From a virus: 30,066 nucleotides of DNA. Position numbers and translations under genes: made by a program. Shown one piece after another: positions 2,169 to 19,990 of the stretch (position 1 is its first letter; each line of letters begins with the position of its first letter). The stretch lies in IMG/VR virus record IMGVR_UViG_3300027668_000063, positions 1-30,066 of that record; one strand, 5' to 3'. The notes beneath the pieces were generated by a model, which ran no database searches, was not told the DNA's origin, and was given only the letters and a program-made list of their open reading frames with translations.

Positions 2169-2477
2169 TTATTTTCTGCCTTTTTTATGCGCTTGTATTT
2201 TTTGGATTGCTACAGTTAGATCATCGCAACCCCCCAAAAACTCTGAAAACCCATCGTCATCATAGAAACATGGCTGGAAATCATCTGCTACGTTGTCAGT
2301 GCGTAAGTTTACGAATAACTCATAGTTTTGACATGGCGATGCGAATGAAGCGCACTCATTAGCTGCCCAAGAGACATCTGTAAATTTAGCGTCAGCTACA
2401 ATATGCAACTGAGCCGCAGTCATGGCTTCTTTATGCTCTATATGGATATCGTTAAGTTTTATTTTTAAGTCTTTCAT
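2169..2477 (-). CDS. Hypothetical 102-residue protein
   Basis: I do not recognise this protein. It has a strong ribosome site (GAGGTGA, four bases before ATG 2477), and its ATG overlaps the preceding stop in ATGA. The N-terminus looks amphipathic (KLNDIHIEHKEAMTAAQLHI), the middle is acidic (CFYDDDGFSEFLGGCDD) and the C-terminus is basic (KIQAHKKGRK). Four cysteines are present, but not in metal-binding pairs. The position inside a chain of translationally coupled small genes suggests an accessory early function. Confidence 0.7.
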   Translation of the reverse strand: MKDLKIKLNDIHIEHKEAMTAAQLHIVADAKFTDVSWAANECASFASPCQNYELFVNLRTDNVADDFQPCFYDDDGFSEFLGGCDDLTVAIQKIQAHKKGRK

Positions 2478-2632
2478 TTTGTCACCTCAAGTTCAGCCAA
2501 CAAAGCCTCGTAAGTCTCTCTGCCACTCTCAGACATCCTATCGATGTCGTATTCAAGTTCTAAAATAAGATCGATTATTTTTTGCGTTTCTTTAACGCCA
2601 ATAGCTTTGGAGATTTTGTCTAACTTTTTCAT
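2474..2632 (-). CDS. Small hypothetical protein, 52 residues
   Basis: The start ATG 2632 overlaps the upstream stop (ATGA), and the stop TGA overlaps the next start (ATGA), so this gene is coupled on both sides. GGAGAGAG lies upstream of the start. The product is predicted to be almost wholly helical and acidic (KETQKIIDLILELEYDIDRM; ETYEALLAELEVTK), so it could be a small dimeric or adaptor protein. No family is recognised. Confidence 0.65.
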   Translation of the reverse strand: MKKLDKISKAIGVKETQKIIDLILELEYDIDRMSESGRETYEALLAELEVTK

Positions 2633-2985
2633 ATCATCTCTCTCCAATCTTCTGGTGGTGCTTCTTTTACCAGTCCAGCATTGTGTAATTGAACTGCAAC
2701 GCTGCGCTTAAATTGCTTTGCTCGATTGATCAACCACTGACGCTCTTGATCTGCGTTCGAAAATACTTTTAGCGCACAGCCTGCCATCAAAGGATGGACG
2801 GGTGAAGAGCCAGTCTCGTCTGGAACTTCTTCGAAAGGTTCGTCAATATCGATATAAGCCTTAATATCCTTGTCATATTTTTTACCACCATATCCATTGA
2901 TGTAGACCCTTCGGTTTTGCCATATTGAGGCGATGAAGCCGTTGTCGTTCAAATAATTATTTAGACTTTCAATGTGATTGTTCAT
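2629..2985 (-). CDS. Hypothetical 118-residue protein
   Basis: I set the start at ATG 2985, which has AGAGGA seven bases upstream. A longer frame to 3048 has no ribosome site, and its first codons overlap a promoter-like element. The protein begins MNNHIESLNNYLNDNGFIAS, with a segment IWQNRRVYINGYGGKKYDKD that looks like short beta strands, then an acidic linker and a basic helix (DQERQWLINRAKQFKRSVAV). The family is not recognised. It heads a run of small coupled genes extending to 1486. Confidence 0.7.
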   Translation of the reverse strand: MNNHIESLNNYLNDNGFIASIWQNRRVYINGYGGKKYDKDIKAYIDIDEPFEEVPDETGSSPVHPLMAGCALKVFSNADQERQWLINRAKQFKRSVAVQLHNAGLVKEAPPEDWREMI

Positions 2986-3036
2986 ATTGTATTCCTCTTG
3001 GTTTTTATGAGTGTAGCCTGTCTCGACCACATAAAC

Positions 3037-3064
3037 ATAATACCACATTGAGAGTTATTTACAA
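3037..3064 (-). promoter_or_regulatory. Candidate sigma70 promoter with extended -10
   Basis: On the minus strand TTGTAA (3064-3059), a 16-base spacer and TATTAT (3042-3037) preceded by TGG form an extended -10 promoter. It lies in the gap between the 85-residue zinc-ribbon gene and the 118-residue gene. It would give the distal small genes their own transcript. The layout (TTGT.., 16 bases, TGG-TATxAT) is the same as the candidate at 1944-1971. Confidence 0.5.
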
Positions 3065-3078
3065 CCTTTAGTTGACTA

Positions 3079-3336
3079 TTAATGAATGCCTTCAACTTCA
3101 TCGCCGCACCGCGCACAGTTCACAATCCGAACTGGCCTTTCGACCAGGCGATCACCAAAAGGCTCATGGTTAATTTCTAAACTTTCAACGACCTCGGACT
3201 CCTTTAATTTAATGTCGCATCGGTAGCAGACATATTTAAAATCTGGAGCATCAGACTCATCTCTGTCTGCGAAAATCGCGTCCCAATTGTCATAAAATGA
3301 GTCTGCAGTTGGACGTTGCTTACTACCTTTTCCCAT
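3079..3336 (-). CDS. Small zinc-ribbon protein, 85 residues
   Basis: The N-terminus MGKGSKQRP plus an acidic helical region is of a type seen in small phage proteins of unknown function. Two CxxC pairs, C37-Y-R-C40 and C74-A-R-C77, sit in the contexts KYVCYRCDIKLKE and VNCARCGDE. Together they form a likely four-cysteine zinc ribbon. The start has GAGGA seven bases upstream, and the gene begins two bases after the prim-pol/helicase stop, so it is in the same transcript. A nucleic-acid or replisome-associated role is plausible from the fold and place, but unproven. Confidence 0.75.
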   Translation of the reverse strand: MGKGSKQRPTADSFYDNWDAIFADRDESDAPDFKYVCYRCDIKLKESEVVESLEINHEPFGDRLVERPVRIVNCARCGDEVEGIH

Positions 3337-8204: not shown

Positions 8205-10099
8205 ATATATCTCTCGACTTTGAGACTTACTCAGAGTGCGACATTCGCAAGGCTGGCGCATACGCCTACGCGGACCATGACACAACTGAAGTATTGTGCA
8301 TGGCGTACTCAGTGAATGATGATCCACCAGAATTGTGGACACCTGACATGCCCGTGCCGCAAAGGCTATTAACTTTGATCGAAGCAGGCGGTGCGACCGT
8401 CTGGGCTTGGAACAGCTTCTTTGAGATGTCGATCTGGAACCTGGTTTTAAAATGGAAGCCAGTGCCAATAGAGCAGTGGCGAGACACTGCAGCACTTGCA
8501 GCCGCACAGGCTTACCCCCGCGCATTAGGAAAATGTGGCGAGGCACTTGGCCTCGATGGCGATGACGCAAAGTCCAAGCGCGGCAAGCTGTTGATTCAGC
8601 GGTGCTGTAAACCATATCGCGGTCAGCGTGTCCGTGATCCGAAACTGTACCAAGAACTGTACGATTATTGCTTGCAAGACGTTGTCGCAGAGCGTGAGAT
8701 TCGTCAGCGGCTTCGCAACCTCAGAGGCATTGAGAGTGCCGTGTGGGAGGCTGACCAACGCATCAACTGGCGTGGCGTTCAGCTAGATCGCAAGTCCATC
8801 GAGAACGGTTTAGCCATCATTGATAAGCACAGCAGCGCGATGAATAAGCGCGTTGAAGTTTTAACTGGGGGCTTTATTGATTCCACGGGGTCACGCGCCA
8901 AGGCAATGCAGTGGTGCGCCTCGCAAAATTATCCACTGTCAAACTACGACAAGGCGGCCATTGCTGACGCGCTGCAGGATGATAACTGTCCTGCGATTGT
9001 GAAAGAATTTCTTGGTATCAGGCAGAGTTTGTCGCGGTCCTCGACTAAAAAGTACAGCGCAATGCTTGAGTGCCTCGGCAAAGATGGCCGTGTTCATGGC
9101 TCCCTGATGTACCACGGAGCCTCAACAGGCCGCTGGTCAGGCCGTCACATTAACCCGCAAAACTTACCACGCCCAACTATTAATGATGTTGATGCCTGCA
9201 TCGTGCAGATGGAGTCCCGTGATCCAGAAGCAATTAGCGGTGAGCCTATGGAATCTTTAGCGAGTTGCTTGAGGGGAATGCTGACAGCGTCAAAAGGTAA
9301 TCGTCTTATAGTCAGCGACTATGCCAGCATAGAGGCAAGGGCGTTGGCTTGGTTGGCTGATCACGATGAGGTCTTGCAAACTTTCCGCGATGGCAAGGAC
9401 ATTTATAAGGCTACCGCATCGGGCATGTTCAATGTGTCATATGAAGACATCAGTTCTGACCAGAGATTTATCGGCAAGGTCGCAACACTGGCCCTCGGTT
9501 ATCAAGGTGGTGTTCGGGCGTTCCAGAAAATGTCTGAGGCATATGGGACTGAAGTGACCGAAGATCAGGCACTAAAAATACGCAACGATTGGCGCGATGC
9601 TAACCATCCTATCGTGCAACTGTGGGTGAACACAGAGAAAGCTGCCAGAAACGCGATTAGCTATTCTGGGAAACCCTTTACAGCCGCAAAAGGAACATTC
9701 CGAATGGTGGCTGGCGATCTATTGTTCAAGCTTCCTAGCGGCAGAATACTGTCTTTTCCAGAGGCGCAACTTCGTCAAGGTGATCGAAATGCTGAGATCA
9801 TCTACAACGGTATGAACAATCACACCCACCGCTGGGACGAGATAAAAGCGTATGGCGGGTCAATCGTGCAATCTATCACTCAGGCTGTTGCCAGAGACAT
9901 TTTGGCAGAAGCAATTCTTCGACTTGAAGCTGCCAGATACCCCATCGTTCTTCACGTTCACGATGAGATCGTGGCTGACGTGCCAGACGCTTATGGATCA
10001 TTGGCTGAGTTTGAAAAGCTAATGTGCGTCTTGCCGACTTGGGCAGAGGGTATGCCCGTTGAGGCAGAAGGCTATGAATCAAATCGATATAGGAAATAA
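8201..10099 (+). CDS. Family A DNA polymerase (phage PolA type)
   Basis: This 632-residue replicative polymerase of the phage PolA group has proofreading. The 3'-5' exonuclease motifs are LDFETYS (D6, E8), WNSFFEMSIWN and YCLQDVVAE (D160). The polymerase motifs are A, SDYASIEARALAW (D373, E378); B, RFIGKVATLALGYQGG (R422, K426, Y434); and C, LHVHDEIVAD (H587, D588, E589). The TGRWSGRHINPQNLPRP stretch before motif A is characteristic of the family. There is no 5' nuclease domain, as expected for phage versions. The ATG overlaps the upstream stop by four bases. It works with the prim-pol/helicase and the DUF2815 SSB. Confidence 0.95.
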   Translation: MNISLDFETYSECDIRKAGAYAYADHDTTEVLCMAYSVNDDPPELWTPDMPVPQRLLTLIEAGGATVWAWNSFFEMSIWNLVLKWKPVPIEQWRDTAALAAAQAYPRALGKCGEALGLDGDDAKSKRGKLLIQRCCKPYRGQRVRDPKLYQELYDYCLQDVVAEREIRQRLRNLRGIESAVWEADQRINWRGVQLDRKSIENGLAIIDKHSSAMNKRVEVLTGGFIDSTGSRAKAMQWCASQNYPLSNYDKAAIADALQDDNCPAIVKEFLGIRQSLSRSSTKKYSAMLECLGKDGRVHGSLMYHGASTGRWSGRHINPQNLPRPTINDVDACIVQMESRDPEAISGEPMESLASCLRGMLTASKGNRLIVSDYASIEARALAWLADHDEVLQTFRDGKDIYKATASGMFNVSYEDISSDQRFIGKVATLALGYQGGVRAFQKMSEAYGTEVTEDQALKIRNDWRDANHPIVQLWVNTEKAARNAISYSGKPFTAAKGTFRMVAGDLLFKLPSGRILSFPEAQLRQGDRNAEIIYNGMNNHTHRWDEIKAYGGSIVQSITQAVARDILAEAILRLEAARYPIVLHVHDEIVADVPDAYGSLAEFEKLMCVLPTWAEGMPVEAEGYESNRYRK

Positions 10100-10880
10100 T
10101 AATGTGGATATTACCAAAGAATTACCCACTGTCATCAGCTTTTGCAGCGGATATGGTGGAATCGAAAGAGGACTTGACCTTGCCGGGGTTGAACATCGAG
10201 TCATCGCTTATGTGGAGATCGAAGCCTTCGCCATTGCGAACTTGGTTAACAAGATGGAAAGCGGACAGCTACCTCCCGCACCTATATATACGGATATTAA
10301 AACCTTCCCATCGGAAATCTTTCGAGGAAAAGTTAGCATCCTCACTGGCGGCTATCCATGTCAGCCATTCAGTGCAGCAGGAAAGCGACTCGGAGAAGAA
10401 GACCCCCGACACCTTTGGCCTCACATCAGGCGACACATCGAAGCAATTAGACCTGTTCGGTGCTTCTTTGAAAACGTCGAAGGACACATCAGCCTCGGAC
10501 TCAGAGAAGTCATTAGCGACTTGGAAGAAGATTGTTACTCAGTTGCGTGGGGAATATTCTCAGCGCGTGAAGTTGGCGCACCGCACCAGAGAAAGCGAGT
10601 CTACATTTTGGCCGACACCGAGAGCCTCCGAGTACAAGGATTGCGGCCCAGTGGGGTCGAAAAGTCAGATTCACATGGACAAGCGAAGTTATCTCTGCGC
10701 CAAAGTCAAAGAACAAGATATGCCACTTGGGATGCTGAACCCGAACTGGGTAGAGTGGTTGATGGGTGTGCCGACCGGGTGGACCGCATTAGGCTCCTGG
10801 GGAATTCTGTCGTACCAGCAACAGCCGCCAAAGCATGGATAACATTACAACACAAGATTGAGGATTCCACTTTTGCGTGA
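10074..10880 (+). CDS. DNA (cytosine-5) methyltransferase
   Basis: This orphan C5 methyltransferase of 268 residues methylates cytosine in a specific DNA site. It has motif I ISFCSGYGGIERGL, motif IV GGYPCQPFSAAG with the catalytic cysteine (C96), motif VI FFENVEGH, motif VIII GAPHQRKRVYIL and motif X IRLLGNSVVPATAAKAW. The target-recognition region between VIII and X is only about 55 residues, so the enzyme is compact. The start is uncertain. ATG 10074 overlaps the polymerase end (GAGG nine bases upstream), while GTG 10104 is in frame behind AGGA. No restriction endonuclease lies beside it, so self-protection against host restriction is the likely role. A 246-codon frame is nested inside it (see 10102-10842). 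Confidence 0.92.
   Translation: MNQIDIGNNNVDITKELPTVISFCSGYGGIERGLDLAGVEHRVIAYVEIEAFAIANLVNKMESGQLPPAPIYTDIKTFPSEIFRGKVSILTGGYPCQPFSAAGKRLGEEDPRHLWPHIRRHIEAIRPVRCFFENVEGHISLGLREVISDLEEDCYSVAWGIFSAREVGAPHQRKRVYILADTESLRVQGLRPSGVEKSDSHGQAKLSLRQSQRTRYATWDAEPELGRVVDGCADRVDRIRLLGNSVVPATAAKAWITLQHKIEDSTFA
10102..10842 (+). CDS. Nested overlapping ORF inside the methyltransferase, +1 frame
   Basis: A 246-codon open frame lies wholly within the methyltransferase gene. It starts at ATG 10102 with AGGA seven bases upstream, the better ribosome site of the two. Its C-terminal half reads QLDLFGASLKTSKDT, FWPTPRASEYKD and LNPNWVEWLMGVPTGWTAL. I recall segments of this type (WPTP, then LNPxWVEWLMGxPxGWT) from many phage proteins listed as hypothetical or methyltransferase-associated. 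The DNA encoding GWTAL here is the same that encodes DRIRLLGNS in the enzyme frame. Either two proteins are made from one stretch, or the conserved enzyme sequence keeps this frame open by chance. I cannot tell which, hence the low confidence. Confidence 0.35.
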   Translation: MWILPKNYPLSSAFAADMVESKEDLTLPGLNIESSLMWRSKPSPLRTWLTRWKADSYLPHLYIRILKPSHRKSFEEKLASSLAAIHVSHSVQQESDSEKKTPDTFGLTSGDTSKQLDLFGASLKTSKDTSASDSEKSLATWKKIVTQLRGEYSQRVKLAHRTRESESTFWPTPRASEYKDCGPVGSKSQIHMDKRSYLCAKVKEQDMPLGMLNPNWVEWLMGVPTGWTALGSWGILSYQQQPPKHG

Positions 10881-17276: not shown

Positions 17277-17828
17277 TTACTCCGCTAAAGCGCCAGCTTG
17301 AATTAGGTCTTCATCCTGATCGATTAACGCAGGTATAGTCTCTTGGATGATCTCTGGGACAGGCGGCACGTCTGAGACAGATGCCAGGTTATCCTCATAC
17401 TGTTTGACATACGCAGGCGCTGAGGCGGCACTACCAGCCTCCAAGCGTGGAGGCGCAGAGTGCAGTGTCGGAAGACCACCCTGAAGTTGCGAGCCTGCCG
17501 GATTCATAATGCCAGCCTGCGACATTACGCTTTGAAGTCCAGACGTGGAATCGACATACCCAGATGTGTCCATCGCGCCACCCACGCCAATTTTAGTGTA
17601 ATCAGATGCACCTGACGGGCCAGAACCAAAATCAGCGCGTTTACCATCTTGACCTTGGAATGCTTGATGCACTGGTGATTCAAGCACGTTATCTTCAAAG
17701 CCTCGGTACGCCTCTTCAAACTTGCCAAGAGGACTAGCGGCATACATGTCAGACATGCCGCTTTGGATGCCAGCCGTCTTAGCCGCTATTGCTTCAGTTG
17801 CCCCTGTTATAATTGCAAGTAAAGTCAT
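17277..17828 (-). CDS. Hypothetical virion protein, 183 residues
   Basis: Low-complexity protein rich in Gly, Ser and Ala, with a short hydrophobic N-terminus (MTLLAIITGATEAIAAKTAG). The middle is probably disordered (FGSGPSGASDYTKIGVGG) and the tail acidic (LIDQDEDLIQAGALAE). Its start overlaps the stop of the 720-residue internal protein (TAATG), and its stop lies three bases before the ADP-ribosyltransferase-like gene. By position it is a minor internal or ejected virion component. No family is recognised. Confidence 0.75.
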   Translation of the reverse strand: MTLLAIITGATEAIAAKTAGIQSGMSDMYAASPLGKFEEAYRGFEDNVLESPVHQAFQGQDGKRADFGSGPSGASDYTKIGVGGAMDTSGYVDSTSGLQSVMSQAGIMNPAGSQLQGGLPTLHSAPPRLEAGSAASAPAYVKQYEDNLASVSDVPPVPEIIQETIPALIDQDEDLIQAGALAE

Positions 17829-19990
17829 TAATCCATATGCTCCGATTCTGACAGTGCCGCCTTATCTTCAAAGCTGTACTGTTCTAACCCTTGACGCAGT
17901 ATCGCATTAAGGTTTATGTGGTTTTTATCTAGTTTCAGTATGTGATCAACAGTGGCTCTACCTTTATTCCTAATGGCATTCTTAACGACACGTTGATCGC
18001 CAAGTTCTTTAAAACCCGCGCCCATCGTGTACTGCAGCCCTGAAATAATATTGAATACAGCGTCTAATATTTTTGTCGCAGTGTTAGAATAATTTACGGA
18101 GCCTTCTGGATGTATTGTTGCTTTTTTAACTGCATCCTGAAATCCTTTAAGGTTAGCAAACTGCTCTGGTGTCAAAACGGCTTGCAAAACATCTGATTTA
18201 TTTTTAATTAATGTGTTAAGTTTAGTTCCTTGAAAAAAATCTAACTCACCTTTAATGACGTTCGGGTTCAACGCTTGATCAAAAATATCTTTTAGCATGT
18301 AAGTCCGTAAATCTGCTACCGCTTGCTCGTTGCCGTTCTCCATTAGTTTTTGTATAACAGTTCTTGCGTTCTCTGGCGACCTCGTTACTAATTTTACAAT
18401 GTCGCTTGCGGCTCTTATCGGTGTGTCTGTGCCGACTTTTAAACCTGTAGTATCTTGTAAAACGTCTTTAGCCTCCCACAGTGCATGATAGTTATGGTTA
18501 GCGGCTCTTGCCGCTCTTGCTTGAGGCAAGAACTTTTTAGCAGTTCTACCATCTACAGTTTGAGATAGAACATCATCTGCGTTGTCACCTACAGCTTTTT
18601 TAATCTGCGAAAGTATCATGTTGCCAGTGCTATCTGTCGACGAATATTTAGTGTTTAAGAATTTAATAAAATCCTCTACATTTGCAACACTTAGCGAATC
18701 AAAATCTCCTGCCAAACCCCTTCTAGGGATATCGCCTTTAAACTTTGCGGAGTCAAGTACATTGTACTGCGAAAGCTTCCTACCAATATCTTCTAGCAGC
18801 CCCTGGTGTGTACCTAAATGATCGCCTGCTATGTCATAGTACGATTGCGCGACTACAGATTTATCGAGCGGTATGTCTACACCGTCTTCTAAAGAAAGTT
18901 GTTTGGCTTTATCGTACATTGCAATGTAGCCATCTTTATCAGAGTTCTTTGCCTGGTTAAGAGCATCCTGTAATGACTTGCCAGCGCCCTCCTTATCTAA
19001 AGCAGGGTTGCCGCCCATCTCTTCGGCTAACTGCCCACTTCTTACTGTGATGTCTTTATTTTGTTGATTTTTAAAATCACGCATTATATCCCCAGCTTCT
19101 TGCGACTGCCTGACGGCTGACTGCTCTGCTGATATCTGACCGAAATCTTGACTTGCCTCTCCTGCTGTTAGATTGAAACCCTGCTCGTTTTCCACTGCTT
19201 TTTGGACAGCAACGTCAACATCATCAGATCGGCCTATGCTCTCGAGTATTTGCCTAGTCGATTGTTTGAGGTTGCTGTAGTCATACCCCATTTCACGCAT
19301 CGCAGTAGATGCTTTATCTTTAATTGTGTCACTTAACCCGGCAACCCTATCAACCAGCGCACCGAAGGGAATTCTCTTGATAGCTTGCTGAAGAACGGTC
19401 ATAAGAGGTTCGCTGGCTACACCACCAACCGCCGCCATAGCACTGTTACCAGCGCGCGACTCATCGGAAAACGGAATCTCAACCGCGCCCTCAACAGCTC
19501 CTGCTACTCCAGAAATTGCGGTGCGCCCCATCAATCCCAAAGTCTGTGGGGCCGCGTATGTTGCTGCTGCTGTGGTAGGGACTGCGGCTAACACACCCCC
19601 CGCCATGCGGCCCGTGAAGTTTGCGGTTGGTGATTGGGCAGCGAGAGTGTCATCTAGAATTTCCAGCCGTCTGGCATGTTCTTGGTTATCTCCCCCAACA
19701 CCGATCAAGTCACCTACGCCCCTGACAAATTTATCTACGCCTACTCCCGTGGATAATGCAAAGTCTTTAAGGCTGCTGTTATCAGCGTTATTACGAGCAG
19801 AGTCTTGCTTCTCAAGGTACTGGCCGTATGCGGTAATATCCTGCATCATCTGGCTGGATTTGCCAGATGGCGTATTTGCCTGTGACCTTGCCGCTATTCG
19901 GTTTGCAACTTTTTGCTGCTCTCCGGGTGACATACCAAAGAAATCGTCAGGTACGTCTACGACCTGACCGTTAATTTTTGCTTGCGCCAT
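17828..19990 (-). CDS. Internal virion / DNA ejection protein, 720 residues
   Basis: A large, mostly helical protein with an N-terminal charged region and a Gly/Ala-rich hydrophobic section at about residues 125-190 (GRMAGGVLAAVPTTAAATYA; AAPQTLGLMGRTAISGVAGA). A long helical body follows with repeated Gln/Asp/Lys-rich stretches. This layout is common in podovirus ejection proteins, which leave the capsid with the DNA and line a channel across the envelope. There is no lysozyme or peptidase motif that I can see. AAAGGTGTG precedes ATG 19990. It is flanked on both sides by proteins of the same class. Confidence 0.7.
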   Translation of the reverse strand: MAQAKINGQVVDVPDDFFGMSPGEQQKVANRIAARSQANTPSGKSSQMMQDITAYGQYLEKQDSARNNADNSSLKDFALSTGVGVDKFVRGVGDLIGVGGDNQEHARRLEILDDTLAAQSPTANFTGRMAGGVLAAVPTTAAATYAAPQTLGLMGRTAISGVAGAVEGAVEIPFSDESRAGNSAMAAVGGVASEPLMTVLQQAIKRIPFGALVDRVAGLSDTIKDKASTAMREMGYDYSNLKQSTRQILESIGRSDDVDVAVQKAVENEQGFNLTAGEASQDFGQISAEQSAVRQSQEAGDIMRDFKNQQNKDITVRSGQLAEEMGGNPALDKEGAGKSLQDALNQAKNSDKDGYIAMYDKAKQLSLEDGVDIPLDKSVVAQSYYDIAGDHLGTHQGLLEDIGRKLSQYNVLDSAKFKGDIPRRGLAGDFDSLSVANVEDFIKFLNTKYSSTDSTGNMILSQIKKAVGDNADDVLSQTVDGRTAKKFLPQARAARAANHNYHALWEAKDVLQDTTGLKVGTDTPIRAASDIVKLVTRSPENARTVIQKLMENGNEQAVADLRTYMLKDIFDQALNPNVIKGELDFFQGTKLNTLIKNKSDVLQAVLTPEQFANLKGFQDAVKKATIHPEGSVNYSNTATKILDAVFNIISGLQYTMGAGFKELGDQRVVKNAIRNKGRATVDHILKLDKNHINLNAILRQGLEQYSFEDKAALSESEHMD

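Follow-up and report, generated by a model that had tools for sequence, protein, structure and literature searches.

A nested reading frame in a phage C5-cytosine methyltransferase gene that most likely encodes the specificity half of the enzyme

Our results suggest that the C5-cytosine methyltransferase of the phage studied here is very likely a split, two-polypeptide enzyme, with both of its chains read from the same DNA in two different frames. The enzyme frame encodes the catalytic chain, here called alpha, and the +1 frame nested in it encodes a second protein, beta, which would be the specificity half. Judging from sequence comparison, it is most likely beta, a protein that usually goes unannotated, that picks the DNA sequence to be methylated in this phage and in hundreds of its relatives. 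The window, by which we mean the whole stretch of DNA that was analysed, comprises the 30,066 nucleotides of a 30-kb IMG/VR virus record (IMGVR_UViG_3300027668_000063). The elements of the gene pair are as follows.

10091..10094, plus strand: AGGA Shine-Dalgarno sequence, 7 nt upstream of ATG 10102 and within the final codons of the upstream polymerase gene
10102..10106, plus strand: overlapping start codons ATGTG, with ATG 10102 for beta and GTG 10104 for alpha
10104..10880, plus strand: alpha, the catalytic polypeptide of the C5-cytosine methyltransferase, with motifs I-VIII and X (phrog_363 / PF00145)
10102..10842, plus strand: beta, the nested protein of 246 aa (phrog_1008), +1 relative to the alpha frame

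The 246-codon frame, the AGGA ahead of it and the overlap of its ATG with GTG 10104 had been pointed out in a first-pass annotation of this DNA, and all of them are found in the sequence as described. The pair follows a family-A DNA polymerase gene and is itself followed by genes for a VRR-NUC-like endonuclease (phrog_93) and a SNF2-type helicase, and both products match PHROG families, alpha with an E value of 2.1e-57 (phrog_363) and beta with 1.3e-17 (phrog_1008). Elsewhere in the window, a 720-aa ORF on the minus strand (17828-19990) is without a PHROG match at E up to 1. The nested start stands at the identical codon in all 71 aligned non-redundant relatives, as ATGTG in 68, GTGTG in two and ATGTA in one, and a Shine-Dalgarno-like G-rich run lies ahead of it in 69 of the 71. 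In 35 of these relatives no further start codon occurs in the alpha frame from the upstream stop to the GTG, so the only upstream start left for alpha is the GTG that overlaps the nested ATG. The studied virus does have an alternative ATG at 10074, inside its polymerase gene, and initiation of alpha there is a possible option. The conservation of ATGTG and of the Shine-Dalgarno sequence supports the earlier proposal that one ribosome site could feed both frames, and both proteins would then start from ATGTG behind a single shared site.

A second frame could in principle stay open merely through codon usage or as a consequence of the enzyme's amino-acid sequence, a by-product explanation that the first-pass annotation had left standing. 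In the studied gene the first stop of the +1 frame is the nested stop itself, whereas synonymous codon shuffles give a mean of 7.8 stops, and an equally long +1 opening appeared in none of 300 such shuffles; the +2 frame has 16 stops where 16.3 are expected. Relatives were gathered as 80 viral loci by the nested protein and 80 by the enzyme protein. In 85 non-redundant relatives nearly all stops of the +1 frame fall within the final 60-120 nt of the gene and the frame is open over almost the whole length before them, whereas shuffles mostly predict 5-13 stops; the +2 stop count across the same 85 equals expectation. The openness persists in a broader and more distant set, so that the proposed comparison with codon-shuffled controls finds an open +1 frame in virtually all close homologues and in the majority of the distant ones; in some distant members it opens only part-way into the gene. 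The by-product explanation would suit some GC-rich relatives (L223, L236-L238 and L240), for which shuffles expect fewer than one stop and openness is uninformative, but the AT-richer relatives expect about 5-13 stops, and ordinary single-frame C5 methyltransferases with motif IX in frame are not open (406 +1 stops against 409.1 expected; 0 of 30 open). A sequencing or assembly artefact was considered as well and rejected, because hundreds of contigs, and finished phage genomes too, show the same arrangement. As a separate observation, the Pseudodesulfovibrio locus L178 has two tandem methyltransferase genes of different kinds (1380-2333 and 2346-3275), each carrying its own nested +1 ORF (282 and 239 aa).

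The substitution pattern shows where each frame is under selection. Codons with a single difference were classed by whether the change is silent in each frame, using 253 pairs that are 72-97% identical. The rate of changes that are silent in alpha and alter beta was 0.10-0.19 over alpha residues 1-80, 0.25-0.37 over residues 81-130, 0.12-0.14 over residues 131-160, 0.02 over residues 171-210 and 0.46 over residues 231-250. Helicase and polA genes read with a fake +1 frame served as controls and gave 0.455 each, from few pairs (3 and 10). Changes that alter alpha and are silent in beta occurred at a rate of 0.09-0.17 over residues 171-210 and of 0.005-0.10 elsewhere in the catalytic part, and alpha dN/dS over residues 171-210 is about 0.8-1.35. 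From these rates it follows that the first part of the gene is dual-coded, that motifs IV-VI and X belong to alpha, and that the stretch between motifs VIII and X belongs to beta, which divides the DNA as follows.

10102..10341, plus strand: beta residues 1-80, an N-terminal segment constrained in both frames, overlapping alpha motifs I-III
10344..10490, plus strand: motifs IV to VI, with constraint acting mainly on the alpha frame and nested dN/dS near or above 1 in most windows along it
10609..10728, plus strand: beta specificity (target-recognition) region, WPTPRASEYKD..., supported by substitution rates and nested codon periodicity
10729..10791, plus strand: beta motif IX, GMLNPNWVEWLMGVPTGWTAL, which single-frame relatives and Firecracker gp5 read in the same frame as motif X
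10794..10838, plus strand: alpha motif X, LLGNSVVPATAAKAW, with alpha dN/dS of 0.02-0.04, third-position identity of 0.48 and an unconstrained nested frame

Over 10344..10490 beta is largely a passive open frame. Between motifs VIII and X it is the alpha frame that drifts neutrally and is filler, and constraint there is confined to the nested frame. Within the types of target-recognition domain (TRD) described below, nucleotide identity by nested codon position is 0.87/0.88/0.57, and in five TRD types the within-type identity is 81-86% for the nested protein as against 48-57% for the alpha-frame translation of the same bases. The analysis of synonymous constraint that had been suggested thus reveals purifying selection specific to the nested frame, and the pattern as a whole indicates that this frame is a real protein-coding gene. 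The nested-frame substitutions and the conserved nested start, together with the openness in homologues and the 30 ordinary enzymes at shuffled expectation, exclude the by-product explanation for practical purposes, and we give it next to no probability. The first-pass annotation had further quoted two peptides of the nested frame and set them over motifs VIII and X. Both peptides are present, but they lie over the stretch between the two motifs rather than over the motifs themselves: FWPTPRASEYKD starts at the final codons of motif VIII and LNPNWVEWLMGVPTGWTAL stops just short of motif X, so that they overlie the part of the gene that normally holds the TRD and motif IX.

This is the part that alpha lacks as protein. 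The match of alpha to PF00145 (E 2.5e-31) is limited to profile positions 2-179 of 324, and the catalytic motifs I, IV (PCQ), VI (ENV) and VIII occur together in the one alpha chain and are invariant in 51 relatives. AlphaFold gives alpha a confident C5 large domain (residues 8-172) and motif-X helix (residues 225-257), with residues 175-223 at pLDDT below 50 and disordered, and a Foldseek search with the model leads to M.HaeIII and M.HhaI. In PF00145 enzymes the TRD and motif IX share a chain with motifs I-VIII, whereas alpha is without a folded target-recognition domain and without motif IX.

The missing parts have their counterpart in beta. Its tail, WPTPRASEYKD...LNPNWVEWLMGVPTGW, shares homology with the part of single-frame C5 methyltransferases that comprises the target-recognition region and motif IX. 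Over TRD and motif IX, BLASTP of the tail from the studied virus against the single-frame enzyme L386 gives 3e-9, and an HMM of beta tails matches L386 with an independent E value of 4.5e-20 and L361, L363, L366, L359, L362 and L367 with values down to about 1e-6, the weakest value among L361, L363, L366 and L367 being 3e-6. In a profile comparison with canonical enzymes the pattern G-LNPxWVEWLMGxPxGW falls exactly on motif IX, with a score reached by 1% of column-shuffled nulls, and a motif-IX position matrix built from canonical enzymes did not place the beta motif above shuffled sequence; the homology of beta to motif IX rests on the single-frame relatives. In several relatives (L168, L169, L171, L173 and others) the nested frame is wholly or largely open with no match to the LNPxWVEW pattern, which may mean that the motif has diverged or that the contigs are cut.

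Between WPTP and LNPxWVEWLMG the sequence occurs as recurrent types on one backbone. There is no linkage of these types with the alpha backbone: alpha identity is 0.782 for pairs of the same TRD type and 0.778 for pairs of different types (permutation p 0.21), and the nearest alpha neighbour is of the same type in only 16 of 49 cases. Many of the proteins have two to five WPTP-like units. Such interchangeable and repeated types look like target-recognition modules, and for an orphan phage enzyme with changing TRDs the probable use is protection from host restriction.

A real nested protein might still not be the specificity half: it could regulate or inhibit the methyltransferase, or it could be a DNA-binding protein unrelated to it. 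The first 80 residues of beta (10102-10341) matched no Pfam or PDB family, though they are conserved in both frames, and the absence of a homologue for this segment would be in keeping with such a role, as would the poor AlphaFold model of beta alone (mean pLDDT 52), which does not yield a known fold. Searches of beta against Pfam and PDB sequences gave chance matches only, and PHROG support for it begins only around residue 75. Against this stand the homology of the C-terminal half of beta to the TRD and motif IX of single-frame methyltransferases, and an alpha chain that offers no TRD elsewhere and whose corresponding stretch evolves neutrally and is disordered. We therefore judge a regulator or unrelated protein to be highly improbable and favour beta as the specificity half. 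The idea that the nested product is a partner of the methyltransferase, raised in the first-pass annotation, was right but understated, since what alpha is missing, the specificity region and motif IX, is found in this product.

The same parts are found in other arrangements. In L386 motifs I-VIII, the region WATPTANDAKN..., LNADWVEALMGYPQGWTDL and GLGNAVVP are in one chain, and L361, L363, L366 and L367 are single-frame enzymes resembling it; the full-length +1 frame is not kept open in the single-frame members. These five enzymes have several tandem PTP units ahead of motif IX and are probably multispecific. In the cultivable Mycobacterium phage Firecracker (Corndogvirus; L355), gp6 (801-1391) contains motifs I-VIII and ends after motif VIII, and gp5 (1183-1746), which lies in the +1 frame and partly overlaps gp6, carries the TRD with motifs IX and X. 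Gordonia phage Neville (L351, 993-1856) shows a third arrangement, where the enzyme frame includes motifs IX and X and the +1 frame supplies the WPTP region. Two apparent stand-alone beta genes, in Stenotrophomonas phage SOVA965 (L004) and Klebsiella phage BUCT711 (L353), were rejected as such, as both have an unannotated open alpha frame.

Public annotation of the pair is uneven. In SOVA965 and BUCT711 the name 'DNA cytosine methyltransferase' is on the nested frame only, in Salmonella phage SAP012 (L009) neither frame is annotated, and the label of phrog_1008 is DNA methyltransferase. The K1G and fTaEco03 records annotate both overlapping genes and give the function only as 'Mte8-like' or 'DNA methyltransferase'.

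Programmed frameshifting would offer another way of bringing the parts together, in that a +1 shift after motif VIII would produce a single chain in which the catalytic domain is followed by the TRD and motif IX. The parts follow one another in the DNA (I-VIII, TRD, IX, X) as they do in a single-frame enzyme, a form that some relatives have, so one shift into the nested frame and one out of it would rebuild a normal enzyme. However, motif X is strongly constrained in the alpha frame, and because it stays there the type found in the studied virus would need a second, opposite shift. A shift product would also have use neither for the conserved Shine-Dalgarno sequence at the nested ATG nor for the nested-frame selection on the first 80 codons. 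We consider frameshifting very unlikely, and the two-polypeptide enzyme remains the reading that we prefer.

In such an enzyme alpha would bind AdoMet and carry the catalytic cysteine, and beta would supply the major-groove reading domain and motif IX, as expected from C5-methyltransferase biochemistry; in M.HhaI-type enzymes that domain and motif IX form the small domain (PMC3404938). The two chains would presumably join one-to-one into a complete enzyme, by analogy with M.EcoHK31I, with beta choosing the DNA site, and the N-terminal segment of beta (residues 1-80) might, as a guess, dock on alpha. A broader reading, to which we attach moderate confidence, would be that of a very widespread phage family whose specificity subunit is permanently dual-coded in the catalytic gene. 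The ATGTG would fix the subunit ratio, TRD modules of one to five units would be swapped where alpha tolerates anything without a stop, and a new, conserved N-terminal segment of beta would hold the split enzyme together. Single-frame, AquI-like, TRD-only and EcoHK31I-like forms among the relatives would interconvert by simple frame changes.

It is rare for a long same-strand overlap to encode two proteins that are both under selection, and in this case the pair appears to form the two halves of a single enzyme. This explains phage 'Dcm' genes that seem to be without a target-recognition domain, and why databases give the same gene now as one frame and now as the other. Cloning of the single ORF with re-coding would destroy the specificity subunit, and the enzyme could be wrongly called inactive. 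The coexistence of single-frame, partly split and fully nested forms of this enzyme opens the evolution of overlapping genes to direct testing. Among open-licence PMC papers we found none that places the specificity region of phage C5 methyltransferases in an overlapping frame. What is already known are the split C5 enzymes M.EcoHK31I and M.AquI, and the pair itself, annotated and unexplained, in kagunaviruses and in PHROGs (phrog_363 and phrog_1008).

A protein hidden in another frame of a phage methylase gene has a precedent in the ShiLan domain, an out-of-frame HNH endonuclease within an actinobacteriophage DNA methylase gene (PMC11855218). Unlike beta, it is a homing insertion in a helicase/methylase gene rather than an enzyme subunit, and represents a different phenomenon; the paper describing it makes no mention of a TRD, motif IX or subunits (PMC11855218). 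In the kagunavirus K1G, ORF31 (C-specific methylase) and ORF30 (putative Mte8-like protein) are the same pair as described here, phrog_363 with phrog_1008, although in K1G and fTaEco03 beta starts 88 nt inside alpha, unlike in the studied virus. M.AquI is a two-polypeptide C5 methyltransferase (PMC3404938) that is split after motif VIII, with motif IX in the second polypeptide, and Firecracker gp6 and gp5 show the same division. In the M.AquI type the small polypeptide has motifs IX and X, as does Firecracker gp5, whereas in the studied virus alpha retains motif X and the whole of beta overlaps with alpha. The small polypeptide of M.EcoHK31I is also encoded within the gene for the large one in another frame, as beta is within alpha. 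M.EcoHK31I is a two-polypeptide C5 methyltransferase (YGGCCR; Lee, Kam and Shaw 1995, as summarised in PMC3404938) whose large polypeptide has motifs I-VIII and X and a predicted TRD, with motif IX in the separate small polypeptide (PMC3404938). Alpha corresponds to this large polypeptide in carrying motifs I-VIII and X, and motif IX is again only in the small polypeptide, beta, where the position-matrix scan was negative. The phage enzyme differs from M.EcoHK31I in that the TRD is read in the nested frame as part of beta, that beta begins two bases before alpha, and that it is an orphan enzyme of a phage with interchangeable TRD types.
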